The notes below the pieces were generated by a model, which did not search any database, had not been told where the DNA came from, and saw only the letters and a list, made by a program, of their open reading frames with translations. This document shows, piece by piece, positions 16,525 to 61,900 of a stretch of 64,000 bases of DNA. The stretch spans positions 2,184,693 to 2,248,692 of the forward strand of contig JAEVLN010000006.1 in the NCBI GenBank assembly GCA_018350325.1. Direction: 5' to 3'. The first letter of the stretch is position 1; the number at the start of each line of letters is the position of its first letter. Made by a program: the position numbers and the translations under genes. This stretch comes from Globodera rostochiensis (lineage: Eukaryota; Nematoda; Chromadorea; Rhabditida; Heteroderidae).

Positions 16525-19500
16525 ATGACGGCGGGAAAGTGTAAGAGAACAAAAAAATGTGTTTAAACTTTAAATTATCGCCCGGGGGGGAAGGCATTTG
16601 AATTATTTTATTGTCCATTATTTTTGCTGAGTTTTTGTCTCCAATCTGCTGATTAAAGTGTCGTCTACATTCGCCCCCAAAAATTGGTAATCTCCCTCCC
16701 CAAATCGGACAATTTAATCGCGCGCATGTGACACCAACTTTTTATCATCAATTTTTTTTTGATCAAAATTTTCATATTAAATTTATTTATAGGGGGGAAA
16801 GCTTTAAAATTTCAAAAATCTTAATTTGTTCACCACCATTAATTTTGTTGCTCTTGGGTGCCGATGACCTCAAAAAAATTCGGAAGGAATTCCAAGGCCT
16901 CAAAATTTTTCGAAATCGGACTTCTCCGACCACAAAAATTTCTTAAATCGGACTTTCGACCATCCCTGGGTATGTATGTTAACGATTTTTCATGATTTTT
17001 TCCAAAAAATTAACTTTTCTTATCACCGGAGGGGAGTATTAACTAACACACACCCAATCAAACCCTCCCCCCCCCCCATTCACTCGTGCCAGCCGATTGG
17101 CGACAGCCGCGTCCAAAATAATGTTATCATAAACACATAAATCTTCCACAATTTTGCCGGTCGTTTTTTTCATTGCAATTTGCCCCCCCCCTCCCCCCAC
17201 AGTTGCTTTACGTTACGTTTTCCTCGGCCAAAGGGCCCCCAATAAGCCGCTTTTTTGTGTGCCATTTCCATTTTTCTGCCCTCGCCATCGCTCCCCCCCC
17301 CGCAAAAGATTATATATTTATATTTATGTACCAATCTTACATATAAATTCATATTAGTTGTATTAGTATGTATGTGACGGAATGCCAATTTGTTGGCACA
17401 ATGCCAAACCGTTGGCGGCGTTCTGTTTGTTGCCAGCCAGTTTGTTGACACACGAGCGCAAGGTAAAGCAAGGCAGAGAGAGAGAAGTCGAAGAAGTGTC
17501 AGGAGAAGACAGACAGGCAGAAGCTTAAAGCTGCTGGCTGGCTGGCGCTCTGTTCAAACAGCAAAGACTGTTTTGGGGTCAGACTGAGGACGACGAGCGG
17601 GGTGAACGAACGAACGAACGAACGGACGGACGGACGGGTGCAGCTGCTGCTGATGAATAAGAAAAAAGAGGGGAGCAGCAGCAGCACATTATTCACATTG
17701 TGTACATATTATACCCCTCCGGGGGGGCGGGGGCCGGGGCGGGGGGGGGGGGCTGAATGTGTGTGGGCGCGGACGACGCCGGCGGGGCGGGGGCGGGGGC
17801 GGCGGGGGGTGCATTTGTGGTACACACATTCCGTCTCGTCTGGCGGCGGGGATTTGTTGTGTAATAAAAATGATGCTATGCAATGCAATGGAATGGGAAA
17901 TGGCGGGGACCGGAATGTGCTAAATGGGGACACGGAAGTGTGTGGAACAGCGGGGCTTATGTTAGCACATTAAAAAACCCCAACAATTTCCGGAATTTTT
18001 TATTGCTTCTGTTGAGCCCGGGGGGTTTTGGGGGAAAAATTGCCTTATTTTTTGTGTCTCCGTTTGCCGGGGTTTTTTTAAATGGTTGCTTTTGCGATAA
18101 AACCCCTAGGTTAAACGCGCTCGGGAAAAAGTTTTTTAAACTTTGAAAATCAAAAAATTTTCGACGTTTTGTCCACCACTGGGGGGGGGGGGGGGCAAGA
18201 ATTACATTTAAAAATTTAAATAGTAAAAGTCAAAATGTTTGCTTTTGCGATAAAACCCCTAGGTTAGACCAGTTCGGGAAAAAACTAAATGTTTTTTTTA
18301 AACTTTGAAAAGCAAAAAATTTTCGACGTTTTGTCCAACACTGGGGGGGGGCAAGAATTACACATAAAATTTAAATAGTAAAAGTCAATATACCTACTGT
18401 TGTATAGGTATGTGAATTAATTCTCTCCCAATCCGAGTGTTGCTGGTGCATTTGTATTTTTTGTTGTTTGGAGTATTGACATTTTGGTTAAAATTTTTAA
18501 AAATTAAATACTGTATACGTAAATTAATTCTTTCTCAATCAAAGTGTAAAAATTAAATTAATTCTCTCTCAATCCAACTTGTAAAAATATCTAAAATAAA
18601 ATGTTTTGGCATTTTGTTTGGCATTGTTTTGCCCGCCAAAATTAACAAGATTTTGTCGTTTAGCGCTGCTCCTCTCCAAACGGTTCAGTTTGGCACTGAT
18701 CTGCTTCGCGGGTTGCGCACTTTGCTATGCTCTCCGCTCCAACTTGTCGTTTGCCATCGTTTGCATGGTCAAGGAGACGGAGTCGGACGGCGCGACGGGT
18801 GGACGTACAAAACACGGGTGCGGGCATGGACCACAACGAGCAGTAGCTGAACAACAACAACAACAACACCAACTCAACAAAACAGGCATGATCAGCAGGT
18901 TCAGGAGGCAAAGCAACGGATCGGTAAGAAAATGTTTGAATTAGAGAGACTTTTTAGTAATGTGTATAAATCAATATTTTGGCGTTCATGCGCCATTTCA
19001 ATGTGTCGACATTTTGTCTTAAAAAAAATTAGAGTTGGACGGGATCGGGATCCCGACCGGGATCAGTCGGGATTATCCCGGTTTTTGTAATCCCGATTCC
19101 GGTTTTTGGAAAATCGAAATCCCGATCCCGGTCTGACCGGGATGAGGCAATAGAAGATGATGACTATGAGGAAGATATTTTCGAATAATAAAAAACATTT
19201 TGTTTCAACATTGACCAATACAAAAAAAAATTTCCCCCATTGTTAATCCCGATCCCGGCTTTCACGATCCCGGTCAATCCCGGTCCCGATTTTCCCAAAA
19301 ATCCCGATCCCGTCCAACTCTAATAAAAATGTAATAGTAATTTGTAAAAATCAATTTGGCGTTCATGCGCCATTTCAATGTGTCGACATTTTGTCCAGGA
19401 AATTCCTTAAATAAAAATGTAATAAAATTCGAAAATATATATTTCTAATAATCAAAAAATGTTTACAAAAAAAAAATCATCTTTTTGTTTTTGTGGTTGG

Positions 19501-22500
19501 CCTAAAATTAAAATGCCAAACAAAAAAAAAATTTTCGGTTTAAAGTAGCTGGAGGATGAGTGATGATATTGTGTGTTATAAAGCGTACTGTAATTTTGAT
19601 AGATTTTCGATGCTCCTCAACACGCTGCTCATGCGCAATCCATTCCAGCTCCTCTAAGCCCTGGCGAATTTGACTGGTCCAAGCAAGTGCGAGGCCAAGT
19701 GCTTGGGTTAGTTACATATGCGATCATGACTGATCGGAGTTTTTTAATGGTCAAATTGGGACTGATCACACTCTACCAACAGATTTTGATTAATAAAACC
19801 CTACTGGTCCTGAGTCTTGCCAAAATCCGCTTTATCTCTTCCTGATCAGTGCATGTTGTGCACCAGGAATTATTGACCAGGAAGTATCGGAATTCCGATT
19901 TTCCAATTTCCGACGTTTTTGGGGTCGGAATTTCGATTTCCGAAAATTTTGAGGCCCCAGGAAATCCGATTTCCGAAAGGGTCCAAATTTTGATTTTAAA
20001 AAAATTTGGGTTTTCTTCCGATTGCCGACATTTTTCAGGTCGGAATTCCGATTTTCTTAAATTTGAGGCCTCGGAATTCCGATTTCCGACATTTATGAGG
20101 TCGGAATTGCTAAATTTTAAAGCCTCGGAATTACGATTTTCGAAATTTATTAGGTCGGAATTGCGATTTCCTTAAAATTTTGAGGCCTCGGAATTACGAT
20201 TTCCGAAATTTTTTGAGGTCGTCGTCGGGGCCTAACCATTGTTCTGTGCATCATTATTAAATTTACTTATACAATTTGTCACAAAACTCATTTGATCAAA
20301 TTTTTAGCGCATTTTTCTTCGGCTATTTGGCCTCCCAAATGCTGGGCGGCTTGTTGGCTGCACGGATTGGTGCCAAATCGGTGATTCTTTGCTCAATGTT
20401 AGCCGCTTCATTGCTTTCACTGCTATCGCCCGGTGCCGCCCGCTTTCACGTCTCATTGTTCATTCTGCTGAGGGCATTGCTCGGATTTTCCCAAGTTTGA
20501 TACATTCCATAAATCGAACAATTTGCTTCTTCTTCTGCTGATGATCAGAGCTTCCTTGAGCAGTCTCAATAACTCTGGTCTTGATCAAAAAGTTGGAAAC
20601 CGCTTTTTTGTATTTGATCAATGCTTGAATTCAATTCAAAGCCATATTTTAAGCATCAAAACCAATCCGATCAGTGAAGCGGTCCCATAGCTAAGCTTGA
20701 TCAATGCTTGAATTCAATTCAATTCCAAATTTTAAGCATCAAAACCAATCCGATCAGTGAAGCGGTCCCATAGCTAAGCTCAATAAACGAGCACATGATC
20801 GATCGATCATCGATGATCAGCAGTTTTTAATCAAAATATTTGTGAGAGCGTCGATAATTTGGGCACCAAATTGTTTACAGGGTGTTATGTTCCCTGCAAT
20901 GCATTGCCTCTGGTCAAACTGGGCACCTCCGCTTGAAAGAGGTCAGGCGAAACGATCACCTACTGATCAAACAGGAGCATTCTCGGATTTATTAGGCGCC
21001 AAATTGATCAATACTGATTAGGCCCCAATAAAATTGATTGGTTGACCAAACATCATTATTGATCAAATAAAGCATTCTCGGATTTATTAGGCGCCAAATT
21101 GATCAATACTGATCAGGCCCAAATAAAATCGATTGTCAAGACGTTCCCATCGTCTTGATTTAAACTAGGGTACCGCCGGGAGGGGGGGGGGACGGGGAAA
21201 ACCGGGGATCCCCGGCCATTCTCATCCCCGTCCTCGTTCCCCGGTTTGCCCATCCCCGAAAATGGGGGTTGTCCGTCCTCGGTATCCCCGTCCCCGGTTT
21301 GACCCCCCCCCCCCGGCGGCGACCTTAATTTAAACTTTCCATGCAGGTTTGCTCACCGGTGTCAGCTATGCGGGTGCGCAGATTGGCAATGTGCTGGTGA
21401 TGCCGTTGTCGGGCATTCTTTGTCGGCACGGTTTTGACGGCGGTTGGCCGTCCATCTTTTACATGCTCAGCGCTGCCGGACTGTGCTGGTCATTGTTGTG
21501 GGCACTGACTGTGGCAAATTCGCCCCAACGGCACTCGTCCATCGGTGCCGACGAGCGACAGTTCATCATGGAAAGCCTTGGCCAACGAAAGGTGGGAGAC
21601 TATGGCGACATGCATAATGAAAATAAGAAAAAAAAATTATTTGCCCTATATATGCTGCGAGGACGATCGACATTCTCGTCGAGATTCTCGATCGAAATCA
21701 CGATCGACCAAATTTTAACGAGATCTTCGAGATTTATCGAGACGAATTTTACCGAGATCTTCGAGATTTTTTGATCGAGATTCTCGATCAAAATCTTGAT
21801 CGGCCCTCAAGTCCTTGCTTTAATTTTAGTCCCAAATATGAAATTTGTGAAGCTAACCCAGGCTTTTTAATTGAGCAGGATAGTGACGACGAATCCATCC
21901 GTGCATCTCGACCGATCCCGATTGGTGCCATTCTTCGCTCAAAAGCTGTATGGGCCATACTGATTGGCCACTTTGCCGGCGATTGGGGCGCTTACATGAT
22001 GGCTTTGGGTGAAAATTTTTGTAAAAAACAGAATTATTAAATATATTGTATGAATATTTTTAGGTTAAATTGTATTTTAACTTTGTTGACAGATCGCAAA
22101 ATGATTTTTATTATTCAATTTCAAATGTTGGCATTTTAAGGTTTGCCGTCTTTTTTGAACGATGTTCTTGGACTGCAAATGACTTCAGTGTGTTTATTCT
22201 ATTCAATACTTACTTCATTAAAAACATTTTAATTAATATAATTAAATTTATTTTTGAAAAATAATTTTCATTATTCAAAACGCACACAAACTTAACCCTC
22301 TTTATTGACGCTTAAAAATATGTATTTCAGATGGGTTTTGCCTCCGCAATACCTTATGTTGCCTATTTTGCGGTCATCAATCTCGGCGGTCACGTGAGTA
22401 TTTTTTATTTAAATTACAAAATTCAAATTTCGAAATATTTTAATTGAACTTTTTAAAAAAATCCGGGGGAGACCGGGACGAGCCTTGTAACAAGGGATGG

Positions 22501-24011: not shown

Positions 24012-24239
24012 TCAGAATTTGCAGGGAAAATGTGTAAAAAAAATTGATTCGGGCACAAAGCAACACACACTGCTGGGTTGTCCATTTTTTAAAACTTAAT
24101 TACCCAAATTCATTTTTAATTTTAAAAAACAAATTTATTTGCACATACCTACATATATTTGTAATTTTATTGAATAAAAAATTCTATATTTTTACAATTA
24201 AACATTTCAGACGACAACAATTATTAAAACTTTGTATTA
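24012..24239. other. Transporter 3' flank
   Basis: Downstream of the TGA at 24009-24011. AT-rich, with AATAAA at about 24172, a plausible cleavage signal. No other feature. Confidence 0.5.
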
Positions 24240-25160
24240 TTCAAGGCTTCCAAACATCAAATTCTGGTTCATGCTGACCTTCCAGAACTCCAATTTCTGG
24301 GTTATCTGTCTTTCCGGAACCCCAATCTTTGGTTTATCTGGCTTTCCAGAACACCAAATTCTGGTTTATCTGGCTTTCCAGAACACCAAATTCTGGTTTA
24401 TCTGGCTTTCAGAACTCCAAATTATGGTTTATCTGGCTTTCCAGAACTCCAAATTATGGTTTATCTGGCTTTCCAGAACCCCAATCTTTGGTTTATCTGG
24501 CTTTCCAGAACAATTCTGGTTCATGCTAACTTTCCAGAACACCAAATTCTGGTTTTCCAAATTCCGGTTTATCTGGCTTTCCAGAACACCAAATTCTGGT
24601 TTATCTAGCTAGAACTCCAAATTATGGTTTATCTGGCTTTCCAGAACGCCAAATTATGGTTTATCTGGCTTTCCAGAACACCAAATTCTGGTTTATCTAG
24701 CTTTCCAGAACACCAAATTCTGGTTTATCTGGCTTTACAGAACTCCAAATTATGGTTTATCTGGCTTTCCAGAACCCCAAACTTTGGTTTATTTGGCTTT
24801 CCAGAACAATTCTGGTTCATGCTAACTTTCCAGAACACCAAATTCTGGTTTATCTAGCTAGAACTCCAAATTATGGTTTATCTGGCTTTCCAGAACTCCA
24901 AATTATGGTTTATCTGGCTTTCCAGAACACCAAATTCTGGTTTATCTAGCTTTCCAGAACTCCAAATTATGGTTTATCTGGCTTTCCAGAACTCCAAATT
25001 ATGGTTTATCTGGCTTTCCAGAACACCAAATTCAGGTTTATCTGGCTTTCCAGAACACCAAATTCTGGTTTATCTGGCTTTCCAGAACCCCAAACTTTGG
25101 TTTATCTGGCTTTCCAGAACACCAAATTCTGGTTTATCTGGCTTTCCAGAACACCAAATA
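24240..25160. repeat. 32-bp minisatellite, about 28 units
   Basis: Unit CTTTCCAGAACACCAAATTC plus TGGTTTATCTGG, with three sub-variants (ACACCAAATTC, ACTCCAAATTA, ACCCCAAACTTTG) in a mixed higher-order pattern. CCAGA...TCTGG within each unit is a short dyad. Long frames follow the repeat in all phases and are not genes. It runs straight into the ATATCCGG words at 25157 and then the right arm. Confidence 0.9.
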
Positions 25161-25391
25161 TCCGCGGATATCCGCGTATATACAGCGGATATATCCGGAT
25201 ACGTGGTTATTCATATCCGGATTTTTGTTAAGAATTGAACAAAAACAATGTTGCCAAGGCTTGAAACGGACACTTGACAACGAGACGAGACTCGAGACCC
25301 AAAAAAATCCCGAGAAATTTCTCAAAATCGAGCCCCGTAAAGACTCGAATAAATATTTATTGGATGTATAAAATAGGCGTATAAATACATA

Positions 25392-28605: not shown

Positions 28606-28669
28606 TAGAGCCCGGTCGAGACGAGAATCTCGTCTCGAGATCTCGCTCGAAGCTCAAGTCCGGGCTCTA
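28606..28669. mobile_element. 64-bp CTCGAG hairpin element
   Basis: Begins TAGAGCCCGG and ends CCGGGCTCTA, with CGAGACGAGAATCTCGTCTCG inside (split here as CGAGACGAGAAT and CTCGTCTCG). It is nearly a single perfect hairpin and is the shortest member of the family. GTAACTAGT occurs on both sides (with three extra bases on the left), a possible target duplication. Confidence 0.7.
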
Positions 28670-28797
28670 GTAACTAGTGTAGATATTTGTAATGGAAAAT
28701 ATTTTTTTTAAAGAATTCATCATAAAAAGCCGAAATATGTAGGATGTTAAAAAGCAATTTACATTCACCAAAAGGTCTGTGGGCTTAACCACCCTTT

Positions 28798-29327
28798 TCA
28801 AATAATATCTTTCAAAATTTTAATCAAATTTTTCATCACTTCTTCATTGTACACTTTCAATTCAACGCGCAATTGATCAATTTCCTCCCATTTCTGATCA
28901 TTCCCCGATTTGCGAAGGTCATTTTGTAAAAAATTCCATTCGTCGATTTTTGAATGATTTAAATAATAAGCATAATTCCAATAATCTTCATTTTGCAGTA
29001 TTTGTTCAATTTGTTCGACTATTTCACGAACATTTTGTGGCATTATAAAGTCCCGCAAAATTTTGATCAAATTTTTCATCATTTGTTCAAAATTGGGCTT
29101 CTTTTCTGTTTCCTTATTGAAAACCCATTTGTTGTACGAATTCTTCCATTCATTGCGAAATTGTTCAATTTCCTCCCATTTCTGATTATTCCCCGATTTG
29201 CGAAGGTCGTATTCCAAAAGATTCCATTCGTCCATTTTTGAATTATTTAAATAAGCATAATTCCAATCGTCGTTTTGCAGCATTTGTTCAATTTTCTTGA
29301 TAATTTCACGACCAATTTGGTGCAATT
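28798..29327 (-). CDS. Terminal exon of two-repeat helical protein, copy C
   Basis: Inverted copy of 10228-10757: acceptor (gtccag) just above 29327, open to the stop at 28798-28800. The second module is the more diverged one (YWNYAYYLNHS; RVELKVYNEE lacks one residue), yet length changes are whole codons, so frame is kept. It lies about 1 kb downstream of the stop of secreted gene C, as copy B does after gene A. An upstream exon is needed for the start; not found. Confidence 0.7.
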
Positions 29328-29369
29328 CTGGACAAAATGTAGAATTGGGTTACTATTCACTAGAACCCG

Positions 29370-29650: not shown

Positions 29651-29734
29651 CAGAGTGCCCGACGAAAATACCTGGAGGGAACGGGGGACGGGGATGAGAA
29701 TGGCCGGGCTATATGTACCTATCTTGTTAAAATA

Positions 29735-30225
29735 CATTTTAACTAGGGTAGAAGCCGGGGGGGAATCCCCGGTCAAACCGGGGACGGGGATACCGGGGAT
29801 CCCCGTTTTTGGGGATGGGCAAAGCGGGGAACGGGGACGGGGATGAGAATGGCCGGGCTATACATATCTTGTTAAAATACATTTTAACTAGGGTAGAAGC
29901 TGGGGGGGGGGGGGGGGGATCCACGGTCAAACCGAGGACGGGGATACCGGAGACGGACAAACCGGGGATCCCTTTTTTGGGGATGGGCAAACCGGGAAAC
30001 GGGGACGGGGATGAGAAGGGCCGGGCTATATATAATCATGTTAAAATACATTTTAACTAGGGTAGAAGCTGGGGGGGGGGGGATCCCCGGTCAAACCGAG
30101 GACGGGGATACCGGGGACGGACAAACCGGGGATCCCCGTTTTTGGGGATGGGCAAACCGGGGAACGGGGATGAAAAGGGCCGGGGATCCCCGGTTTCGCC
30201 GTCCCCGTCCCCATGGCTTTCTTAC
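29735..30225. repeat. Triplicated CCGGGGATCCCCGG-family element
   Basis: Three head-to-tail units of about 160 bp, each starting AACTAGGGTAGAAGC plus a G run, then GGGGATCCCCGGTCAAACCG-type words and ending in GGCCGGGCTATA ... TTAAAATACATTTT. It is the same family as 21166-21327. Confidence 0.75.
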
Positions 30226-30356
30226 CCTAATTATAACTGTTAATCGCATAATGGAAATCCGGGGGATGGGAATTTGCTGAACAAAAATTTTCTAATGCGA
30301 TCGCGATATGCCCAAAAAATGCGATAAATATTTTAAAATCCAGCAACAAAATGGGA

Positions 30357-33300: not shown

Positions 33301-36300
33301 GCCCGGGTTTTTAGTTGCATTTTTTCATGCTTTTCGTTAGAGACCGGGCTTGAGCTTCGAGCGAGATCTCGAGTCGAGATTCTCGAAAAAATCTCAGTCT
33401 CGAAAAATCTCGTGAAGCTCATTTTTAGTCGAGCGAGATCTCGAGGTCGAGATTCTCGAAAAATTTCGGGTCTCGAAAAACCTCGAGCCGGAACAGTCGA
33501 GATTCGAGATTTTTGATCAAAATTGAAATTTTTTCAAAATTCACCAAACTCCACCAAATTTTGGTAAAGGTAAGAAGGGAGTACTAGAAGCATGTCTGCA
33601 GAATTTGGTCACGAAATATAACAGCTGTGTCCAAGGTTTTAAATTAAATGTGTTTGACCATAGGCTGTCTGCCGGTAAGAAAATTGTTATTTAAAAGAAA
33701 TTGTTCAAAAATATAAGTTTTTGAGAATTTTTAGTCACTTTTGAGTGGGGGAGGGGGGGGGGTCGGCGGTGCCGATAGGCGCGGCCGAGAAAATTTGAAT
33801 TTTCGACTAATTTGTTAAGGGATTTGCAACCAAAATTTTAAAAATGCGGTAATTTTTTGAAGCTTTTTAGGAGTAAGAGAGGTCCAGTAAGGCAAAATTT
33901 TACAAAAATTGGCAATCTTTGTTTAAAAAAGCAGTGTTGTTCATGAAAAATGTTTGGGCTCGAGATCGAGAATCTCGTGCTTCCTTCGAGCGAGATCTCG
34001 AGTCGAGATTCTCGAAAAAATCTCGGTCTTGAAAAATCTCGTGAAGCTCATTTTTAGTCGAGCGAGATCTCGAGTCGAGATTCTCGAAAAAATCTCGGTC
34101 TCGAAAAATCTCGTGAAGCTCATTTTTAGTCGAGCGAGATCTCGAGTCGAGATTCTCGAAAAAATCTCGGTCTCGAAAAATCTCGTGAAGCTCATTTTTA
34201 GTCGAGCGAGATCTCGAGGTCGAGATTTTTCGAGAATCTCGTCGAGATTTTTCGAGATCCTCGAGACGAGATCTCGTCTCGACCGGTCTCTACTTTTCGT
34301 TGCCTACAAATTTCAAAAATATGCTTCAAAACCCAAACATTTGTCCAAAAAAAGTTAAACCAACACGAAAAGGCCATTTTGGCCCAAATTCTTCAAGGCT
34401 TATGAGCATACAAAATATGCAAAAGCATATAATTCGGTCATTTTCTTAGAATATTTAAACTTTTAACAGAAATAGTAAAAAAATGCAAATTAATATTCTT
34501 TACTTTGATTAATTTTTATATACTAGGTAATTGTTTAAAATTTACATTAATTAATTGATATATAATTAACATACCATAAAACTGTCAAGAATCTCACTAT
34601 CAGTGGAATAAACATCTTTGCACTCATTCTCACGTTTAGCGAAAAAGTAATTGAGGAATTCTTTATAGGCGAACCTTGTACGATACAATGCCCTCCCAAA
34701 ACTGAGCAATGCGCAGTGAACCAATTTCTCCATTGACTTTAGCACTGTTTTAATTGGCATTTTTTAAATTTAAAAATAGTTTTAACATTAACTTAAAGAA
34801 TATTTTATTCATCAATAAAAAAAATGTTAGTCCGATTATCATCAACATTGCCGTTAAAATGTTTTGGTACGACGGTTTCGTGCGAAAAATGTTAATTTGA
34901 ATTTTCTTAATAAAAAAACCTCCTTTTCCATTTTTTTAATGCAATAAGCATTATATTTTTTGTTGCAAATTTGTTGCAAATCTTTAAAAATTGAGTTCAA
35001 CCTGGCGTTTTTTTCCCAATGATTTCAACAAAGTACTGCTTCACAAATGTGTAAAGTGCTGGCGGTTGTTGTTCAAATGCTTGAACATTATTATTGCTTT
35101 TGTCGTCTATTATTCTCTCCGCCTCAATTAAAATAATTTCGCTCATTTTGTACACCTCAAATGATGTCAATGAAAAATCGGAGAGCTTCAGCACGAATTT
35201 GAAATTTTCTGCAATTAACGAAAAAAATGATTTACATTTTTGTTTTTTGAAATTTTTAAATAATAATTCATACGAATGTATTGGTCGTGTTCCGCTGTAT
35301 GTTCTGTAAGGTTTTGATTTGTAAATTCAGTCCAAGACAATTCGTTAAAACTTTCATCACCGTGACATTGAATAATTTTAAATGGGCATATCCTTAAATT
35401 GCATTTTGAATTTTGAAATTGAAAAAACAAAATGATAACAATTAAAGTTGTCAAAATAATGACTGACTATCAGGATAGACACCTTTTTAAAACCAGAAAT
35501 CAAAAAAACAGAATTTTGAAGCTCAAACCGACCAGAAAAATTCTGACAGAAATTTTAAAAAAAACCGAATTAAATATTACATCTAACACAAATGATTACA
35601 AATCAAAAAGCTAATGTAAAAACTTTTACAAATGGGAGAAGTCCGGCGGTGCCAATATTTTTTTTTCTTCTTAAAAAATTTTGAAAAATAGTATTCTAGT
35701 GTCCAAAACGACCAGAAATTTTGATAAATCAAGAATTAGAACAACACCCCCTGAAGACTATATACATTAGAGACCGGACTTGAGTTTCGAGCGAGATGTC
35801 GAGACGAGATTCTCGAAAAATCTCGCCGCCGGAACAGTCGAGATTATTTTATACGCCGACAAAAGAGTTTCTATTTGCCTTACAAATCGAGTCAAGCCAA
35901 AAAATTTAATAACTAAAGATCGTAATAAGATAGGTATCAGAAAATAAATTGAAAAAATTCCGTATTTATTCCGTATTTTTAGCTACGGAATTTCACGGAA
36001 TCCGGAACGGAAGACATCCCCGATACATACATACTGTGATGCATGAGAGTCTCGTTCTCGAGTCTTGGGGTCAAGTCTCGGTCTCGAGTCTCGGGGTCAA
36101 GTTTCGGTCTCGAGTCTCGGGGTCAAGTATCGGTCTCGAGTCTCGGTAAATTTTGGGTCTCGTGCATCACTATTACATACCAATTGGTGTCACATTTAGT
36201 CGACAAAATTTTATACGCCGACAAAAGAGTTTCTATATGCCTTTTGTCAAAGCTTTCGCGTTCCTTATGATATACATAATAATGAAATCTAAAAAAAAAG

Positions 36301-36786
36301 TATTTACAATAATTTAATTTATTTTTAATCGAAAAGCACTGACTTAAAAGAAACGAAAAGCCGCACGGCAAATGAGATGGACAACATCAAAAGTTGGTCC
36401 ACCACTGCCCGGGGCAATGGCTTTTCATGGCGCAAAATATTTTTGTTGAATTCATTGGCAATATGCTGCTCCAATAATTTGTCCGAATATCCAAACTTGG
36501 CTTTCAATTTTGCGTAAGCATTTCCTAGATTGGGGTTGATCACCCGAGCATCGGCAACTTCTGACACATGTTTTACAAAAGCAATATAAAATAGAATCAA
36601 TTTTTTTGGCTCATTGATACGATTACGTCCTTCCTGGTCATAACTTTTGACAATTCCATCAATAAATTGATCAAATAATTGGACATTATTGGCACGGTTG
36701 GTCAAATCCCATTTGTAGGGTGTTGTCGAATCAACCAAATTTATAAAAATCAAAATAAAAGTAACAAAGTTTGCGGGTTCCATCAT
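30357..36786 (-). CDS. Secreted multi-exon protein, ~802 aa, copy C (inverted)
   Basis: Minus-strand exons: 36344-36786, 36181-36288, 35274-35392, 35002-35208, 34571-34744, 32536-32980, 31574-31956, 30587-30935, 30357-30537. Total 2409 nt, in frame throughout. Compared with copy A, exon 4 is one codon shorter, exon 5 one codon longer and exon 9 four codons shorter; all other exons are equal in length. The N-terminus MMEPANFVTFILIFINLV is a likely signal peptide, and the start follows an acceptor closely. Amino-acid changes are scattered and no stop has arisen, which argues that both copies are maintained. Intron 2 carries a CTCGAG element (36036-36170) and intron 5 a 955-bp element. No recognised domain; function unknown. 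A secreted host-interaction protein is possible but unsupported by sequence alone. Confidence 0.75.
31911..32525. repeat. Tandem duplication of exon-7 start plus GGGATCC-type element
   Basis: About 328 bp is repeated: the first 45-50 nt of exon 7 of secreted gene C, its acceptor, the adjoining intron and an element starting TAGAGTTGGCCGGAACC (32143 and 32394). The second exon fragment (32239-32290) is fused directly to the element end (CAGTCCCAAAATTGGACA). The left arm has a single element at 7848-8026. Confidence 0.7.
33338..34292. mobile_element. 955-bp CTCGAGA-family element with 8-bp target duplication
   Basis: Starts TAGAGACCGGGCTTGAG and ends GAGACCGGTCTCTA-like (CGACCGGTCTCTA): terminal inverted repeat TAGAGACCGG. 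An exact target duplication CTTTTCGT lies at 33330-33337 and 34293-34300. Inside, four 67-bp units (GTCGAGCGAGATCTCGAG, GAGATTCTCGAAAAAATCTC, GTGAAGCTCATTTTTA) flank a non-repetitive middle (33530-33950). No transposase frame, so non-autonomous. It lies in intron 5 of secreted gene C; the exact insertion is absent from copy A. Confidence 0.9.
36036..36170. mobile_element. CTCGAG-family element, GTGATGCA termini
   Basis: Starts GTGATGCATGAGAGTCTCG and ends GGTCTCGTGCATCAC; inside are four copies of GGTCTCGAGTCTCGGGGTCA-type words. It lies in intron 2 of secreted gene C and is absent at that site in copy A. Same family as the receptor intron-2 insertions. Confidence 0.75.
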
Positions 36787-39762: not shown

Positions 39763-40880
39763 ATGCTTCTCAATTGGGCTTCTGGCATTGATTACTACAC
39801 AATTCTTTGTGCCGTGGTTTCAGGAATTTCGGCCTTTGTGGCAAGCTTGATCGCGCTTGGGGAGGTCGCCGGGCGTTACAAATACGCGCTTTTGTTGCCC
39901 AACACCGCCGTCGCCATTTCTTTTGGATTGGCATCGAATTTTCTTTACAAATTTGGCGGGGGTTTGTCTCTTTAAATGATCACAAATTTTTGGGGTTGCA
40001 TTTTTTTCAGGCTTTGATCGCCCCGACACCAAAATGGCTTTCGGAGTCTATGGGGCAACGGCGTTCACCGCTTTTTTACTATTGCCCGTGCTCAAAACCA
40101 AAAAGACCAAGGCGGTAAGTCAGGGGTGTAATCAGAAGAAAATTAAAGGGGAGAGATAAAATACGAGAATTCTTTGAAGCTTTTTGTTGAATGGGAGGTC
40201 CGGTGATGGGAAATTGAATTTCAAAAAGATTTGTTAAGAATTTTCTTTTTTGTAAAATTTCATTGGGTGAGCCCCCCCCCCTCCCCGACTACGCCCCCTG
40301 CGGGGAGTGTTTTCGATCACTCACAAATTTGCCAAATTAATGCTTTAAGATAACGGCAAACGCTGCTGTTCTTGCCGGCCTATCGGTCGTCACCACCGCC
40401 GCTTTCTTCAACATCGACGACACTTCCGCCTATTTGACGTGAGTTTCAAAAGCAAACAATTTAAAATAACATAAAATTTGTTCATTCCTTCCTTTCAGCA
40501 TTCCTTTCACTGTTTGGGCCATTCTCTGTGCAGTGTTTTCCCGGTTCCGGTTCCGGTGCCGGTTCCAACGGTTCCGGGAACCGGTTCCGGAACCGGAACC
40601 GCGGAACCGCAAAAAATTCGGAACCGATTTTGGAACCGGTTCCCGGAACCGCCAAAATCCGGAACCGGTTTGGAACCGGAACCGCGAAAATCCGGAACCG
40701 CTTCGGAACCGGAACCGTGGAACCGTAAAGAGCTTGGAACCGCTTCGGAACCGGAACCGTGGAACCGTTAGAAAAAATGAAACCGGGAAAACACTGTCTC
40801 TGTGCTGCGATTCCTCTCAAAGTCGAAGCAATCACTCCCGGAATGACAATGTGAGAACCATATGGGGGACCATTTATTAG
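39763..40880 (+). CDS. Small multi-membrane protein with element-interrupted last exon
   Basis: Exons 39763-39961, 40011-40114, 40350-40438 and 40499 onward, all in phase. The protein has about four hydrophobic segments (YTILCAVVSGISAFVASLIA; LLLPNTAVAISFGLASNFL; MAFGVYGATAFTAFLLLPV; ITANAAVLAGLSVVTTAAFF; then IPFTVWAILCA). A 266-bp element (40531-40796) sits in the last exon. Read through it, the frame stays open to 40880, giving about 257 residues with an Arg/Pro/Asn-rich tail. Without the element and one target copy the exon would end at a TGA at 40852-40854, for about 157 residues. Size and the last two segments recall TspO/MBR-like proteins, but the WxPP signature is absent, so I leave the family open. 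Confidence 0.7.
40531..40796. mobile_element. hAT-like element, GGAACCGGTTCC family, in coding exon
   Basis: Starts CAGTGTTTTCCCGGTTCCGG and ends AACCGGGAAAACACTG: terminal inverted repeat CAGTGTTTTCCCGG, beginning CAGTG as many hAT elements do. An exact 8-bp target duplication TCTCTGTG lies at 40523-40530 and 40797-40804. The interior is made of GGAACCGGTTCC words in degenerate tandem. It carries no stop in the host frame. Confidence 0.92.
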
Positions 40881-47435: not shown

Positions 47436-47636
47436 CAGAGTTGGTCGGGACCGGGATTTTTGGGAAAAACCGGGACCGGGATTTTTGGCAAAAACCGGGA
47501 CCGGGATTGACCGGGACCGTGAAAGCCGGGATCGGGACCAGCATGTTGAACCGGGAACGGGATTTCGCCTTTTGAAAAACCGGGACTCAAAAAACCGGGA
47601 ATTTCCCGACCGGGATCCCGGTCCTGACCAACTCTA
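47436..47636. mobile_element. Palindromic-word element, GGGACCGGGATT family
   Basis: Terminal inverted repeat CAGAGTTGGTC / GACCAACTCTA and an exact 8-bp target duplication CCTATGGG (47428-47435 and 47637-47644). The interior is repeated ACCGGGATTTTTGG and CGGGACCG words. It lies immediately beyond the 3' end of the intact F-box gene. Confidence 0.9.
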
Positions 47637-47676: not shown

Positions 47677-50600
47677 TTACCTGTCGTTGAAGTGAATCGC
47701 CATGCAATTCCACGAATTCCATTCAAGCGCCGCCTTTTCCCAATTGGCCCATTTCGCTTCGTCGCGCTCAATTGGACAACGAACCAACAGCCAATTGTTT
47801 TTGTAAAAGTGCCGAAACACCAATTGCTCGCCCGTCAAATTGTTTTTCAGTTCGAATGGCACAATGTCAGCAGAAGAAAAATGCCAAAAATTGATGATAA
47901 AATTAAGCGAAACAACTGCAGTGACAAAAGCCTAAAATGCAATAAAGTATTAAAAATCGGAAAATGCATGTAAAATTCTAAATTACATTTTTGAGTCCTT
48001 CCAACGCTCGCAAACAACAAACGCATCCCAACACTTTTGGACGTCCATCCCCGCGGGGCGTGTGCAACCATTTGGCCAAAGCTTGGCCAGAAGAAGCGCC
48101 GGCACTGTCATCGGCCGGGAACTCGGGAGAAAGATACTCGGAAGTGATCGCTCGAAGTTTTGGGCAATCGCCGAGAACGGTGGGCGAGATTCGGCGCAAA
48201 CGGTCGAGAGTGGCGGAAGACAAATCATCAAAGGCGCAAATTTTGTCATTGATCAAAGGCCAAATTTGGTGACAAATGATTTCCCAGCTGCGCTTTTGGT
48301 TGTCAGCTGTTCTAATAGAAAGATTGATGCCTTTGAAGTCGAAAAGTTGGCCAATTCTTTGGAAAAATTCGATGACACTTTGGTCGATGTACCTAAAAGT
48401 TTACTACAGGAAAATCTAATAATTCAAATAAGGGTTGGACGGGACTGTCGGGATTTTTGGAAAAATCGGGAAACGGGACTAGTTTTGCTAAATAATTAAT
48501 AGGCGAAAAAGTGCCAAAACCCCAAAATAGTTTTTTTAAGTTACGAATAGTGACGTTAAAACGAAAAATTTTCAACTAAAAAACATGTTTATCGTGCATA
48601 ACTCGTCAAAACGAAGCTGCAGAAAAAATAGTAAATAACTAAAAATCCCCACCCTAATTATAAGGGCATTATTTTAAAGGAATTTTTAAAAACCGGGACC
48701 AAAATTTCAGTACCAAAATTGAAAAAATAGACCCTTTCAGTACTGGTCCCGGTCCCGTCCAACCCTAATTTAAATGCTTAGAAATGACCATATTTGAAGG
48801 TTTTTGAAGCCAATCACTTTGCCTGGCGGCGCTTTTTGCGGAATTGGCAGCCGACGCTCCAATTTATAGCCCCAGTGAAAGGTTTTGACAATTTCGGCGC
48901 CATTTCCGTCAGTTGCACGACGAATTTCCAAAAAACCCAACGACCATTCGTTCAATTTGAAATGCGCGTCCACCAAAAAGTCAAATCGATCGCTGATCAA
49001 TGCAACTTTCAGTCCGAGCACAAAAGGGTCACAGAATTTGAAAACTTCGAACAGAACGTCGTTGCAAATGAAACTGAAAATTCGGGGAGGATGAAATGAG
49101 ATGAATATGGGTGCCGCAAATTTGAGTTGGTCGGGATCGGGATTGCTGGTAAAAACCGGGAGCGGGATCGCGAAAGGCAGGATCGGGACCAGCATGTTGA
49201 ACCGGGACTGGGATTTTGACTTTTCAAAAACCGGGATCGGGATTAGGTAACCGGGATTGAAAATGGGAAAGTAATTGTCAATGGTAAATAAATTTTTCTT
49301 TTTACTAAAAATATCTTCCTCGTTGCCTTCATATACAATTCCCGTGAGGGCGGAGGGATTCCCCTGAGCCCGTAGAACAGGGGTCCAGGGCCTATAGGTC
49401 AAAATTCAAAATTTTCTCGGCGGCGCCTATCGGCACCGCCGACCCACGCGCGCCCCCAAAAAAAACAAAATTCGCAAAAAAATTTGCATATTGAAAATCG
49501 ACAAAATTTCCTAAATTTTTAGAAATTTCAACAATGTTAAAAAAAATTTCAAAAAATGTACTGAAAATTGAACTTTTTTAGCACAAAATTGCTTGGATTT
49601 TCGTTAATTTTGCCGATTATCGATTTTCAAAAATACAATTTTACTTTTTTGAAGTTTTTTAGGAATGGGAATGACATTTTGGACATTTTTTAAGCAGAAA
49701 ATTCAAAAAAGAATGGGAAAAAGGTGACCGATCGTTTGGGCAGTGGATCCTTTGGCAGTGACTTTTTTTGCAAAAATTAATTAATCAGTCAATTAACTTT
49801 TAAATATTTTTTTGTATAAAAAAACTTTTAGTTGGTTTATTATTTTTTAAATTCTAAGATATGAATAGTAGTGACTCAGAGGAAAGCTTTATTGAAGGTG
49901 AAGTCGTTTCTGAATCAGAAGAAGGAGAGTTTCATTCCGATCAGGAGGAGAATCCAATGGAGGCACCCCATCAATCAATTTAAAGTTCTTTGAGGTAATT
50001 TCAAAAAAAGGCAAAAGCCTTCTAACTCGAGAAGGCTTCGATTATCAGTTTGAAGCGGACAGCAAAGTTGAAGACAACATACAGTATTGGAAATGTGCAA
50101 AAGTTAATTAATTAAAGTATTATAACTTATTTTTTATTAAAGAGGGTTGCTGGTTCACATTGTCCCGGACGCATCCATGTAATTGGCCAATGGCACAATC
50201 GGGGCGATAATAGATATAAGCTCGGACGAATTGTGAACGCAAATCATAGGCACCGCGCCGATTTAGAGAGAAAGCATTAATTTTCCCTTATAACTTACAA
50301 ACAACTTGTACTCAAAAAATTAATTTTTTAAATTATATTTCACTGCCCAAAGGATCACTGCCCAATCGATCCACTGCCCAAAGGATCCACTGCCCAAAGG
50401 ATAGGGAACCGGGAAAAATGCTTGAAAATTAACAAATTTGGCCAACTGTCTAGAGATTATTCAAAATTTAACAAAAATTCTTCAAAAAGCTCCAAAAATC
50501 TCAAATAAAGGACAAAAAAGGGCTTGTATCCCAAATAAAGTACAAATCTTTAAAAAAAGGACATTTAAAATTTAAATGATTGGGATACCCCAAAAAAAGA

Positions 50601-53700: not shown

Positions 53701-53799
53701 ACGCAAACTGCGCTATTTTTCGAGAATTGCAAAATTAGGGATTTTGTCCGCTTTTGGCTTAATAGGGATTTTGACCGTTAGGGATTTTGTCCTGACACG
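50703..53799. repeat. Dispersed degenerate-repeat region
   Basis: No exon recognised. 51340-51600 (AATTCGGGTCCGGGATTCAG, CGAATCTGACC words, ending near ACGAAACACCGA) recurs at 60030-60300. 51790-52080, 52297-52853 and 53200-53640 are made of CCTATTTTGGCACTTTT, TTTCTTAAGAAAAATGCAAT and AAAAATCCGCTCTC words. The last of these is the end of a family whose other end reads AGGGACCGGATTTTTAGGG. A stretch at 52910-52975 (CTTGGCTAAGTGGTTAAGC) resembles a tRNA D-arm but does not fold as a tRNA. Confidence 0.55.
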
Positions 53800-55840: not shown

Positions 55841-55904
55841 TTTTGCGAGGCTTAAAACCCATTTATTAAATTATTAAAAAAAATTTTCAGATTTTTGAGT
55901 GCCA

Positions 55905-58900
55905 ATGAAACGTGCCGACATTCAAGGCCTTCGAACTGTGGCCATTTTTGGTGTCATTATCTACCACATTTGGCCCACACATTTTCCTAGCGGCTTTCTT
56001 GGCGTCGACATGTCAGTTTAAATTAATTATTTGCTGATTGTAATTTTGAAAAATTTATATTAAATCAAATTTAAATGAATTTTAAAAATTTTATTTGACC
56101 GCCAATTCGGTCGCCAAATTGTTCTATAAACTGACATACCAATCAAATTGTGCATGAATTTATTAATAGGTAGAGATGAGATTTTTAGGGACTAAAAACC
56201 CCCAAAATAGGGACTAAAAACCCCCAAAATAGGGACTAAAAACCCCCAAAAATAGGGACTAAAAACCCCCAAAATAGGGACTAAAAACCCCCAAAATAGG
56301 GACTAAAAACCCCCAAAATAGGGACTAAAAACCCCCAAAAATAGGGACTAAAAACCCCCAAAAATAGGGACTAAAAACCCCCAAAATAGGGACTAAAAAC
56401 CCCCAAAATAGGGACTAAAAACCCCCCAAAATAGGGACTAAAAACCCCCAAAATAGGGACTAAAAACCCCCAAAATAGGGACTAAAAACCCCCCAAAATA
56501 GGGACTAAAAACCCCAAAAAGTGGCAAAATAGTAATAAAAAAAATGTACTAAAACTGGCATTCAGTCAATTTATGCGTAAAACCTTCAAAATTTGTCAAT
56601 CTTTATTAATTTTTCTCATACAATTGTAAATTTAATATTTTTCACATGTGGAAAATTTTACAAAAAAATAACCTTTTCAGAAAATATCGATCTCTGGGGG
56701 AATGCATTTTTGGTCCAAGAAAAATGTTTTGATTTTAAAGGGGTACATTTTTCTTTTTTTTTGCATTAACTTAAGAAATTTTCGAAAAAATGCCTAAGAA
56801 ATTGCATTTTTCTTATGAAATTTTTGGGAAAAGTACCAAAATATGGACTAAAAACGCGAAGTGGCAGACGTCAGATTTTGAATTTGGCACGTTCAAATTT
56901 TGTTGGGCTAATAATTTGTTTAAATTTTTAAATTTTATTTTTTTTTCAGATTTTTTGTCATTTCTGGACATCTAATGGCCGGATGTCTTACAAAACTTTT
57001 CGGAAATTGCGCGCTCAAACCGAACAAAGCAGCCCTGAACAAATTGGCCCAATTTTACACACGTCGCATTAAGCGTATTGTGCCAATTTATGTTGCCATC
57101 ATTTATGGCACTTTGAGGTAAATGAAAATTTAATAAAATTAAAACAAACAAAAAAAATGTTTTTGAAGTGTTTCCCGGACAATAATGCTCGACTCGGACT
57201 TCCAGAAGGCACGCGTGGACATGTACTGGGCATTGGCATTCATCTCAAATATGCAGTCCGTGTTCGAAAACAACGATTATTTCACGGAGGTAAAAATAAA
57301 AAATTTTGTTTTCGCTCAATTTAAATATTATTTTTTGATTATTAATTAAATTTAAATATATGTACAATTTTTAGATTTTATTAAAATGCTTTAATATTAA
57401 ATCAATTAAGTTGAAGTATCTTTTCGTAATATTAGCAATTTGATTTTGTTTTTAATACAATTTTAATTATGTTGGAGGTAAAAATAAAAAATTTTGTTTA
57501 ATACAGTTTAATTTATGTTTCTTAAATTAATTATTTCATTTAATTATTTTCTTTTGGCAAATTTTAAAATTTATTTTTTGGATCGAATCTTTTGGATCGC
57601 ATTTTTGAAGTTTCTTGTAAGCCAAAAAATTTAATGAATCCTGAAATTAATGTTTCAAGAATTAATACACTGTATAGATAGGTACCCTAAACCCGGGACT
57701 GAAAAGTGCCAATGTCGTAGTGGCGCTGAAAAGGCCGCGTGCCATTTGAGCACAAGCACCTGAAAAGTGTGTACATATAAATATTTTTTGCCAAAACTCG
57801 CACAAACAAAATAATTTCATACCGTAGCAATGGCACAATTGTGATTGACAACCGTAAGATACCGTACTCATTTGCCCCAAGGTGTTCTCCTACCGTCCCT
57901 TTCTGCACTGTTGGTCGATGGGCGTCGAAATGCACTTCTACCTGCTGGTGCCGTTGGTCATGTTTGTCCTGCTCTCACTGCGTGGTGCGCAGCGACGCTT
58001 GCTGCGCTTCGGCTTCTGCTCTACCGTACTCATTTGCTCGGTTACGGTGCAGCAACTGCTCGCTACCGTACTGCCGGCACTGTCGTTTGGTTTCGTCTTT
58101 TGCCGGCTATGGCAATTTTTTGCCGGGATTTTGGTGCATTTTTTGAACGTCGATGAGCAGGATGAAGCGGACAGCGGTGCTCAAGCGGCCGCCCCGACTG
58201 GTTGGCCATATGTCCTGGGACAAAATGACAAAGGTTACAAAAAGGGAATAGATTTTGGACACCTTGACAGGTCAGGGGCGTAGCCAGGAAAAATTTTCGG
58301 GGGGGGGGGGGGGGGGGGGGGGGGGAAAACTCGATTCTTAGGGGTGTATTTTTTCCTTTTTATTGCATTTTTGTTAAGCAATTTTTCCGAAATCATTCAT
58401 TGTACTTGGCATAGTCAGGCCCATTTTTTTAAATTTAATTTACCAAAGTTTTCAAAAATGAGGCTAGCTGCCTCCGAGTTTTGGCATTTTGACTTTTGTG
58501 CCAACATTTGAATTTCTCCAATTTATGCCCTATCAATCATTCATTGTACACGTTTAGCATGTGCTCAGGCCCATCTTTTTAATATAATTTACCTACGTTT
58601 TCATATTTGGCAGAAATTGCAATTTCTGGCAACGCGACGACGGCACTTTCGGCACAAATCAAAGCCAACGCGGTGGTGCCGTGTTCGACCTCACCGCCTC
58701 CGCTGCCCGCCTCGTCCACTGCCTCGCTTATGATCACATCGCCCACATCGTCATCTTCAGCTTGTCAACAAGAAACTGAAGCTAATAAAAGTCCGTTGAT
58801 TATTATGCTAACAATGATTAGCAGGCTAATAATTAGGGTCCGGATTTTCATGTTTTAACATTTTTTTTTGAGAATAGGGAATCATGAGAGAAGCCCAGAA

Positions 58901-61900
58901 ATAGCATTCATTTCAAAAAATTTTCAAATTAGGGCGACTTTTTAGTCAATATAAATCCATATTTTGGCTTTTTTGAGAATAAATCCATATTTCGCCATTT
59001 TTCCCATAATAAATCCATATTTTGGCTTTTTTGGACAAAAATTCAACAAAAATTCGGAGTTTTTGTAAAAATTCCTTAAGAAAAATGCAATAAAAACGAA
59101 AATGTAGCCTTAAAAATCAAAAATTTTTCAAACCAAAAATGCACCCATATGCATCATCAAAGATTGAAATTTTTTTCTTTAAAATTTTTTATATGTGAAA
59201 AATATTATATATTTACAACTGTAAGAAGAAATTAAATCCGGACCAAACTAATAATCAAATCAATTTTTCAAACAGACAATTTGGCGCGCTTCCTTTGGCA
59301 TACTGCCATTGTTCACATGCTGCTGTTGTTGTTGCTTTGCGTGCTGTTCATCCCATTTCATGTTCCCGCCTCTGTTGTGCCCTTCCAGACCAGTTTGGTG
59401 GTCATTTTGTCCGCTGCACTGATCCATGTTCAGCACCAGCCCGGCATGGCATGGCCATCGTCCCCGTTGCTCTCCAATTTCCTTGCAGTACAGCTTGGCG
59501 ACCTCTCCTACGTCTGGTTAGTGCAATTTTTTGATTTGTAAATATTCACTGATTTATGTATTATAATTTTCGCTAATTTTAAATCTAAAAAAGATTTTAA
59601 ACGCTAAATTTTTAATATTTTAATTTTCCTGAAAAATCCAATTTTCAGGTACTTGGTGAGCTCAAATTCAAATTTTGCCGATGCCATGCATCATCAACAA
59701 ATTTCAAACTCTGAAGGTACACTGGCCTACCATTGTGTTCATCAAATATTTCTTCACCGTTGATCAATTTTCCCTCAAAAGTTTGGCGAAATGTCCAATT
59801 TTTGAATTTGAATTTGAATTTTTCGCATTTTTTTCGATGGCCTCTTCACGCTTCTGCTCACTTTGATGTTGGCACTGCTTCTGGACCGCATTTTGGACGC
59901 ACACATTCGTCGATTGCCCAATTTCTGTTCGGTTCTGTTGCTGATCGGACTCCTCTACACATTCTGCTTTTTCCTCGTCCTGCCCACTTATTATTCGGGA
60001 CAAATTGAGGTAAAAATTCAAACATTTTTCAAAAAATCAATTTTGGCCTCAAAATCGTTCTCAAAAAGCATGAATTCGGGTCCGGGATTCAGAATTGGGC
60101 AAAATGAATGTCAAATTCGTATTCTATGGCCCAGAAAACCCCTAAAAAGACTATTTTGATTTTTTGAAAAAAAGTTCGAATCCGGGTCCGGGATTCGAAA
60201 TTGGTCGGAATAAAGGTCAGATTCGGATTCTACGCCGTTGTATATCCCTAACTTTTTTTTCGACATTTCGTGGCTTCGACGTTTTGTGGCTTCGAAATTA
60301 TGTTGGCGCGCCTCATATTAACATTCAAAATTAAAATTAAAATGCCAAAGATTTAATCATTTAAAAAACAATTAAACCAAAATAAAAATGAACTACTTTA
60401 ACCGACATACCTACCTAATATTTTAAAATCATGTATAAATATAAAAAGGTAACCATTAATCTAAAAGTATGCCAATTAAACAGTAACAAAAACATAATCA
60501 TTTTTATTAAAAACCCCTTAGGCGTTTAAATTCAAAAAATCTTAGCCAATTTTTGCAATTATATTATTTTTCCGAATTAATGTTTTAAATTTGCCGAAGG
60601 CGTTGAAATAAATTTTTGGCGTTAAAATTCAAAAAATTAAGTACTTAGCCGACGACATTTTTGCATTATGTTTTTTCCGAATTAAATGTTTTAATTAATT
60701 GCCTAAGGCATTAAAATATATTTTGAAAATTTTTTTTAATTGCTTGCTTTTTCAGAGAATTGCTACCGAAAAAGACAACGATGGATCGTTGGGGCAACGA
60801 GCTGTAACGCTGGACACCAATTTCACCAAGATGATCATCAACGAATTGCAGGTGCGCGAGCAGAATGCCACAAATTGTTGGCATAATGCCAATTTTGAAA
60901 AATGCTTACACAGAACACAGAGAGTCGCAAACGGCTGGTCAGCACACTGTCACTGTACGAGAAGATCAAGATGAACGAGCTGTTGCAAGGGGCCACATTT
61001 GAGGTAAAGAATCCGCAAAAAATTCCCCAATATTCAACTTAATCAAGAAGTGATCAAATGATTTGATCAATTTGACCCATTCTATATTTTGCAAGCAAAA
61101 ATAAAAATTGAAAATTATTCACTTAATTATTTAAAATTTAAATATAAATTAGAATTTTTCCATTTTTCTGTCAAAAATTCTTGTGATTTATAATTAACCG
61201 ATTAATTTAAATTCCTCTTAAGAAAATCAGAATTTTAAATTTATTAATCCTTTTTAATTTATAAAAAAAAGACAATTTCCACTTTTCAAGATTTTATCCC
61301 AATTTATATTTGAAGTAAAGCGGGCGCGGGCTGGAACTCAGACTGAAATGCCCGGGTTTGGGACAGGAATTCATTTTCTCTTAATGATCCCGGGGTGTTT
61401 TTTTCAAAATTTACAAATAATTGTTTTATAGTCAATTAGTCCCGGTTTTTTTAGCCGGATTTGAGTCATTTTCTCAAACTTCCGGCTTACTAATCCCGAT
61501 CAGGGCTCTTTATTTGCCCTATTTTTATGGCAAATGCCATAATTTTGGAAATTTGCCATATTTCCACACCTGCCATAATTTTGCCATATTTTAGAACTTT
61601 GTGAAAAATACTCATTTTTAAGGGAAACATGAGAATGCCCGAAAATAGTGCTCCTTGATTCGTACAATTTTTTTTTTCAAAATTCTTTAAGAAAGTTGCC
61701 ATAAAATGCCATATTTTTGGCCCCTCGGTGCCATAAAAATGTAATATTTGGAGCCGTTTGCCATATTTTGTTGGGGATGTTGAGAGCCCTGATCCCGATC
61801 CCGAGTTTAAAATTCCGAGTTTTCCATAAAAATCCGGATCCCGACTCAACTCTCTAATTTGAGGATCGCTATAAAATGTTGCCGGGCGAAGAACGGACAG

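Follow-up and report, generated by a model that had tools for sequence, protein, structure and literature searches.

The 64,000-nucleotide stretch of the Globodera rostochiensis genome analysed here (C56:2184693-2248692, hereafter the window) carries short hAT-like transposable elements with terminal inverted repeats (TIRs) and flanking 8-bp target-site duplications (TSDs), several of which are filled by arrays of a short word that differs between families. Very probably these are non-autonomous members of several co-resident hAT families, comparable to miniature inverted-repeat transposable elements (MITEs) or to Ds, and the word is the subterminal repeat (STR) of each family, most likely bound by the BED zinc finger of its transposase. 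Their anatomy and descent are evident from TIRs with 8-bp TSDs, from transposase-bearing parents, from a word concentrated in the element ends and, for one window element, from empty sites; close relatives also show a concerted shift of the word. The unusual feature is that the word is so diverse and turns over in concert while the plan stays constant, a stronger result than had been claimed in an initial annotation made from the window sequence alone; the concerted turnover is the new part. The genome searched was the 92.6-Mb assembly of 80 contigs, and locus names beginning with L denote stretches of this same assembly. The window elements and their TSDs are:

19030-19322, plus strand: element E, non-autonomous hAT; word CGGGAT/ATCCCG; TIR TAGAGTTGGACGGGATCGGGAT; TSD AAAAAAAT/ATAAAAAT (7 of 8 bases).
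21158-21165, plus strand: left 8-bp TSD of element A, ATTTAAAC, with its right copy at 21328-21335.
21166-21327, plus strand: element A, non-autonomous hAT; word CGGGGAT; gapped TIR; parent L059.
29744-30229, plus strand: element with the word of A and an internal 164-bp tandem repetition; TSD ATTTTAAC/ATTATAAC (7 of 8); missed by the initial annotation.
33330-33337, plus strand: left TSD of element B, CTTTTCGT, with its right copy at 34293-34300.
33338-34292, minus strand: element B, non-autonomous hAT; word CGAGAT/ATCTCG; 72-bp repeated block; parent L038, in reverse orientation.
36035-36172, plus strand: element H, with the word GAGTCTCG and an GAGTCTCGGTCTC array; right end TAGTGATGCACGAGAC; TSD ATACATAC/TTACATAC (7 of 8); likewise missed.
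40523-40530, plus strand: left TSD of element C, TCTCTGTG, with its right copy at 40797-40804.
40531-40796, plus strand: element C, non-autonomous hAT; word GAACCG/CGGTTC; 16-bp perfect TIR CAGTGTTTTCCCGGTT; parent L091.
47436-47636, plus strand: element D, non-autonomous hAT; word CGGGAC/CGGGAT; TSD CCTATGGG; parent C56:1040578-1043528.
48430-48767, plus strand: element F, hAT-like; D-like TIR TAGGGTTGGACGGGAC; no word array; TSD ATTCAAAT/ATTTAAAT (7 of 8).
58834-59247, plus strand: element G, hAT-like; TAGGGTCCGGATTT end; no word array; exact TSD CTAATAAT.

The end types found (CAGTG, CAGAG, TAGAG, TAGGG and TAGTG) belong to short TIRs of the CAGNG/TAGNG type, which is typical of hAT elements. 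Tandem blocks occur within the arrays, with a 72-bp unit in element B and a 25-bp unit in element D. The TIR of element H, whose start was taken 2-3 bases further in for the palindrome, parent-match, junction and duplicate-block analyses, is identical to that of L015 733-938, and the TIR of element G is similar to that of L024 2110-2774. The hAT case is weakest for element G, for which the evidence consists of the TIR and the exact TSD.

Matches listed for the genome include 100 to the hAT dimerisation domain PF05699 and 45 to zf-BED. The initial annotation had proposed looking for a transposase with matching ends, and for four of the window words complete-ended elements with hAT coding sequence were located:

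L059 462-2076: parent of A; TSD GTTTAATT.
L038 611-1999: parent of B.
L091 65-1925: parent of C; TSD GTTACAAA.
C56:1040578-1043528: parent of D/E, 2,951 bp; TSD CTTTTTAC; a BED match at 1043019-1043147 and a dimerisation-domain match at 1041018-1041176 lie inside.

When the window elements were compared with 12 such parents, each of A to E matched its own parent at both ends, element H matched only part of L071, and elements F and G matched none of the 12 at E 1e-6. Element E aligns with positions 1-116 of the D/E parent at 78% identity and with 2875-2951 at 92%, and it retains 15 codons and a stop, ending at 19188, that resemble the C-terminus of the parent, which marks it as an internal-deletion derivative. 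Elements A to E are therefore internally deleted, MITE- or Ds-like derivatives, being short, lacking a complete transposase and having ends that come from a coding parent. The C-terminal exon of L038 matches Hermes transposase chains in PDB (E 5e-7), and the BED finger of D/E matches ZBED2 (2djr, E 1e-4). PF05699 was found within the parents of A, B and D/E, and in the parent of C at a score below Pfam's cut-off (E 0.002). A BED finger was detected in the parents of A and D/E, and the one further B exon scanned against Pfam gave no match. hAT elements are widespread in plant-parasitic nematodes (PMC11118728), and the term 'subterminal' does not appear in the available text of that paper. Elsewhere in the assembly, C11:100852-112057 holds five hAT dimerisation-domain matches with identical scores, an internal TGA and a spacing of about 2.7 kb, and resembles a tandem array of a hAT-derived unit.

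The distribution of the word was examined in 12 transposase-bearing elements representing about 11 lineages. The top end hexamer of each occurs in total 330 times in 7,200 bp of ends (the terminal 300 bp on each side, from which the top hexamers were themselves chosen) versus twice in 11,849 bp of interior, and subterminal repeats are present at both ends in all 12. The claim that the word differs between families within a constant plan was thus right, and holds more widely than had been proposed: the lineages mostly carry different words next to their TIRs, with L078 and L087 nearly sharing one. CG is contained in 10 of the 12 top hexamers, and in at least four of the top eight hexamers in 11 of the 12 elements, compared with 17.4% of window hexamers. 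Most families have the unit in both orientations. The orientation is one-sided in L071 (0 vs 21) and in the D/E left end (10 vs 0), and the unit therefore need not be palindromic. Constant across families is the position adjoining the TIR; in addition, most families have the unit in both directions, and it generally includes a CG.

We presume that the word is an STR serving as the site of a BED finger. The unit is about 6 bp long, usually with CG, present in both orientations in most families, and adjoins the TIR within the terminal 300 bp or so. Its most likely binding partner would be the N-terminal BED zinc finger of the family's own transposase, and a multimeric transposase might recognise and pair both ends through the word. 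In short copies the ends are retained and the coding middle is gone, which makes them appear as pure arrays of the word, and such array-only copies may still hold what the enzyme needs.

Turnover of the word is seen most directly between L037 and the group formed by L034, L036, L040, L041 and L055, which share a common TIR with it. Their interiors, where kept, are 93.6-94.7% identical (93.8% between L037 and L034), and their arrays are 83-87% identical. In the alignment of L037 with L034, in which the unit is CGGTA[N], position 6 differs at 22 of 30 sites, compared with 9 of 185 core positions and 21 of 137 spacer positions. Twenty-one of the 22 changed sixth positions are the same T/A exchange (CGGTAT/CGGTAA), found in both orientations and at both ends; the remaining one lies at an overlapping double site. 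Comparisons of L037 with the other four members gave 22 of 29 (three times) and 18 of 24, values that depend on the L034 comparison. A tally that needs no alignment gives T32/A4/C1 for position 6 of L037 and A38/T12/C1 for that of L034, such that 12 of 51 L034 units are still CGGTAT. Since blocks recur within the arrays, the shift events must be fewer than 22.

Further words occur on related ends. L100 (TSD TTGAGCGC) has a right TIR, TAGTGCTCGGCACGATACGATATT, slightly unlike the TAGTGTTCGGCACGGTACGGTATT of the L034 family, and its ends contain CGATAT 30 times and CGGTA twice, while the array of L101, of which one end is seen, has CGGTAAA 15 times in 240 bp. In the TAGAGTTGG (D/E) family, position 6 of CGGGA[N] is a mixture of C, T and some A in six D-type copies and nearly all T in six E-type copies. 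The D-type/E-type split resembles a second word shift and serves as support only, as no E-type parent was found. Among the titles and abstract openings listed from one open-access library, none describes such word shifts, which does not amount to their absence from print.

It is quite possible, and we put it forward tentatively, that the genome preserves a walk of the recognition word within one TIR family. Single letters would change across most of the array, at both ends and in both orientations (CGATAT, CGGTAT, CGGTAA, CGGTAAA), with the terminal TIR bases and the unit's CG almost unaltered, as a result of finger and array evolving jointly. If so, the walk would be a natural series of specificity changes that split one hAT lineage into families no longer able to cross-mobilise each other. 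A single changed site gains little by itself, which makes it puzzling how a transposase and dozens of its binding sites could move jointly to a new specificity. With close relatives shifted by one letter and many words accompanied by their own BED fingers in one genome, the finger-to-word code and its turnover become testable.

Alternatively, the arrays might be products of molecular drive without function: slippage would have extended them, starting at the inner end of the TIR, gene conversion would keep the copies alike, and word shifts would then need no change in the transposase. The tandem blocks in elements B and D are of the kind expected from such a process, the ends of the L034 group share near-identical blocks so that the 22 sites are not 22 independent events, and similarity over the whole BED domain does not track the word. 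Against this, the sites of L037 are co-linear with those in the L034 group, and adjacent units of opposite orientation within one short block mostly shift by the same rule, unlike what block conversion alone would produce. Moreover, all 12 transposase-bearing elements carry the array in their ends and almost none of it inside, and mostly distinct words are found on distinct transposases. We therefore consider drive alone rather unlikely.

That the BED finger binds the word, that the word is used in transposition and that its shifts follow changes in finger specificity are inferences, and several results weigh against this reading. Similarity of the whole BED domain was not correlated with similarity of the word (Mantel r 0.10, p 0.29, n=10). 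The six positions equivalent to DNA contacts in Hermes (63-67 and 70, equivalence being set by the zinc-binding His) gave a weak signal (Mantel r 0.33, p 0.02, n=11), this being the second of two tests, made on relatives that are not independent and confounded by descent. L078 and L087, whose BED fingers are dissimilar (0.29), have a word in common (0.80), and the L045 word, CCTGGA, is the clear exception in lacking CG. The finger-like BED exon of L091 has no Pfam match, and the dimerisation domain of L091 is the one below Pfam's cut-off. No CGGTAT-class copy with a retained BED exon was found, all 10 protein matches lying at other places than the CGGTAT-like ones, so that the finger belonging to this word cannot be read; the match at C56:2505556 adjoins a 77% match at C56:2505779, which is the CGGTAA element of L040. 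In the arrays, the unit core diverges less than the spacer (55 of 1020 vs 117 of 1115 pooled over 12 comparisons, below the spacer in 10 and above it in 2), a difference that the aligner may have helped. Two L037/L036 comparisons, omitted from the pooled count as global alignment misaligned their arrays, showed no significant core/spacer difference under the union definition (26% vs 25% and 20% vs 27%). Finally, the Hermes authors report no dramatic loss of transposition after mutation of putative inner BED sites (PMC10368747).

Some individual pairs do agree with a finger that follows its word. Close fingers go with close words in D/E and L067 and in L071 and L068. In the TAGTG family, contact residues assigned by eye are ASTSGA in L034, GSTSGY in L101 and GNTAGV in L100, that is, three fingers for three words, and the BED exons of L100 and L101 are 59% and 57% identical to that of L034. 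This pairing is suggestive only.

The initial annotation had described 'one palindromic word' as the common plan and supposed that the word is free to turn over provided that it remains self-complementary. Elements F and G lack a word array, and palindromes exceed dinucleotide shuffles for only some words, which leaves the first statement unconfirmed. We compared palindrome counts in 20 sequence sets with null expectations, taking as an excess over dinucleotide shuffles those cases in which at most 9 of 300 shuffles reached the observed count. Relative to an order-3 Markov null, 10-bp palindromes were in excess in only 1 of 20 sets (the parent of A), and palindrome excess as a common rule is rejected on this basis. 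Relative to dinucleotide shuffles, there was an excess in five sets at 10 bp (elements B and C, the parents of C and A, and L071), in four at 6 bp (B, F, H and the parent of C) and in three at 8 bp (B and the parents of C and A). Palindromes centred on CCGG, TCGA or GATC form where a unit meets its own reverse complement. Of the second statement, turnover stands, in the form of the concerted one-letter shifts; self-complementarity as the constraint does not.

It is accordingly very unlikely that self-complementarity is itself the constraint, with any self-complementary word serving through a cruciform or a symmetric dimer. The 10-bp excess over shuffles in a quarter of the sets would be consistent with such a constraint, as would the cooperative binding of a quasi-palindromic STR pair by two BED domains in Hermes (PMC10368747). 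Nevertheless, 15 of the 20 sets, including D, E, their parent and L034, show no 10-bp excess over shuffles, only the parent of A exceeds the Markov null, and one orientation dominates in L071 and at the D/E left end. Self-complementarity is a by-product in most families.

One of the words listed in the initial annotation, ATTTTTAGTCCC, has as its source, we take it, a 22-bp satellite at 56186-56520, which is not confirmed as part of an element of the proposed plan. This satellite (TAGGGACTAAAAACCCCCAAAA) stands immediately after TAGAGATGAGATTTTTAGGGACTA, a hAT-like left end similar to that of L062 2438-3020 (56172-56520 for the two together), and a motif search up to 58500 found no right end for it.

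Empty sites were sought by searching the genome with the joined flanks of eight window elements and scoring the best 40 of 93 candidates. The junction of element F was spanned at 17 places (72-88% identical) among the 49 matches listed, and all six of the 17 paralogues that were read are without the insert. The closest of the six, L094, has a single ATTTAAAT in place of the ATTCAAAT and ATTTAAAT that border element F. For the other seven elements, the best 40 of 93 candidates included no match that ran past the junction by over 10 bases or so in both directions, element H being cut 2 bases off. The inverted duplicate within the window (28.8-36.8 kb vs 3.6-10.8 kb) likewise offered no clean empty site for B or H. 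A further case is L064, where a family A element lies within a satellite array of about 108 bp; five other units of this satellite lack the element and align through the site at 93-95% identity, with a target that differs at two of the eight TSD bases.

Exact 8-bp TSDs flank five window elements (A, B, C, D and G). The four that had been reported (at the elements starting at 21166, 33338, 40531 and 47436) are present as claimed. Three further sites had been given as matching at 7 of 8 bases, which is correct for 19030-19322 and 48430-48767, while the third, 58835-59248, becomes an exact match (CTAATAAT) when moved by one base to 58834-59247. An ungapped scan of the window returned six exact 8-bp matches, of which those at 33338, 40531, 47436 and 58834 are elements and those at 5461 and 55150, both AT-rich, were judged to be chance. 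A gapped scan with an end-motif filter returned five (21166, 33338, 40531, 47436 and the AT-rich 30429), along with 6, 1 and 0 exact matches at 7, 9 and 10 bp; the six 7-bp matches look AT-rich or represent one end pair counted twice. With one mismatch allowed, the gapped scan gave 17 matches, of which three (19030, 29744 and 48430) were accepted because of their TIRs; sites matching at 7 of 8 bases are supported by their TIRs more than by the TSD. The accepted window sites are distinguished by GC-rich TIRs. As the 8-bp count in the window is not above the 7-bp count, the window alone does not settle whether TSDs are in excess.

The strong TSD evidence comes from genomic loci rather than from the window. 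A copy search by TIR plus 8-bp duplication, as the initial annotation had suggested, was made over 101 loci, with a hAT-like end motif demanded: 30 loci were chosen by similarity to element D (one being the window), 30 by the hAT dimerisation domain and 30 by the BED finger, and 11 were chosen stretches. Because these loci were picked by family features, the scan tests these families and is not a random sample. It yielded 47 distinct exact-TSD TIR matches at 8 bp versus 21, 9, 7 and 3 at 6, 7, 9 and 10 bp. The first 60 loci gave 33 rows at 8 bp versus 11, 5, 2 and 1 at those lengths, and the next 32 gave 15 (two inside one array) versus 10, 4, 5 and 2; the 8-bp count is 42 over 99 loci after dropping three rows inside arrays. 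Since chance matches become more frequent as the length decreases, the peak at 8 bp is meaningful. Accidental flanking repeats in low-complexity DNA of an AT-rich genome, to which the unremarkable 8-bp count of the gapped window scan and the three noise-like AT-rich matches (5461, 55150 and 30429) would conform, have a negligible probability given this 8-bp peak, and are rejected for families having parents by those parents and by the empty sites. hAT-type transposition, as originally proposed, is well supported by the 8-bp TSD excess, by parents with the same ends and words and by the empty sites. In the same material, L013 2601-2893 is an element whose 24-bp TIRs are identical (TAATACATTACGAAATTGGGTAAT) and whose flanks read TTTTTAAA; its ends are unlike those of the hAT families.

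Among known systems, CACTA transposons have a 3-bp TSD and a transposase of another superfamily, whereas the elements here have an 8-bp TSD and hAT domains. The two are alike in that direct and inverted subterminal repeats, set close together, come after the TIR (PMC8978399). Maize Ac/Ds is alike in its 8-bp TSD, short TIR, CG-containing STR and internally deleted Ds copies, and the Ac transposase binds the hexameric STR AAACGG in the terminal 200 bp or so (PMC3260210). Ac/Ds differs in having one word for the family, whereas the several co-resident families here mostly have words of their own. The arrays here are also denser, to the point of filling short elements, and between close relatives the word has shifted array-wide. 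Hermes of the housefly, to which the C-terminal transposase match in PDB points, has AAGT STRs that are bound by BED domains in a multimeric transposase, two of them as a quasi-palindrome (PMC10368747). Its own STR (AAGT/AAGC) works best in an AT-rich setting and occurs 17 and 14 times in the ends, whereas the words here mostly contain CG and are dense and often tandem. The fish hAT element Tgf2 has 17 and 18 STR copies in its ends, and its zinc finger contributes to binding (PMC4890040), and the domesticated yeast hAT Kat1 has the STRs TGAAT and AATTCA (PMC4763223). Both differ from the present elements in their words, and the portions of these two reports consulted describe no shifted-word series.

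End arrays of hAT elements may account for many of the unusual GC-rich 'palindromic' repeats in this genome. Five word-array queries gave 820, 187, 277, 2,770 and 312 first-look candidates, of which the best 40 of each were scored and which are not confirmed copies.

Apart from the elements, the window contains a gene block that is duplicated in inverted orientation (28.8-36.8 kb vs 3.6-10.8 kb). The open reading frames (ORFs) at 231-761 and 10230-10757 (plus strand) are close copies of the one at 28798-29325 (minus strand), and further copy pairs in the block are 7388/32532, 8164/31557 and 3656/36325. At E 0.001, Pfam gave no match for the duplicated-block ORFs 231-761, 3656-4465, 7388-7837 and 8164-8529. 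For the single-exon ORF at 36325-36786 (minus strand), the sole database relative at E < 0.001 is a Globodera pallida protein with 79% identity over 27% of the query. At 24248-25159 there is a 32-bp satellite, 28.5 copies long, part of which is readable as open frames of FWFIWLSRTPNSGLSGFPE-like repeats.

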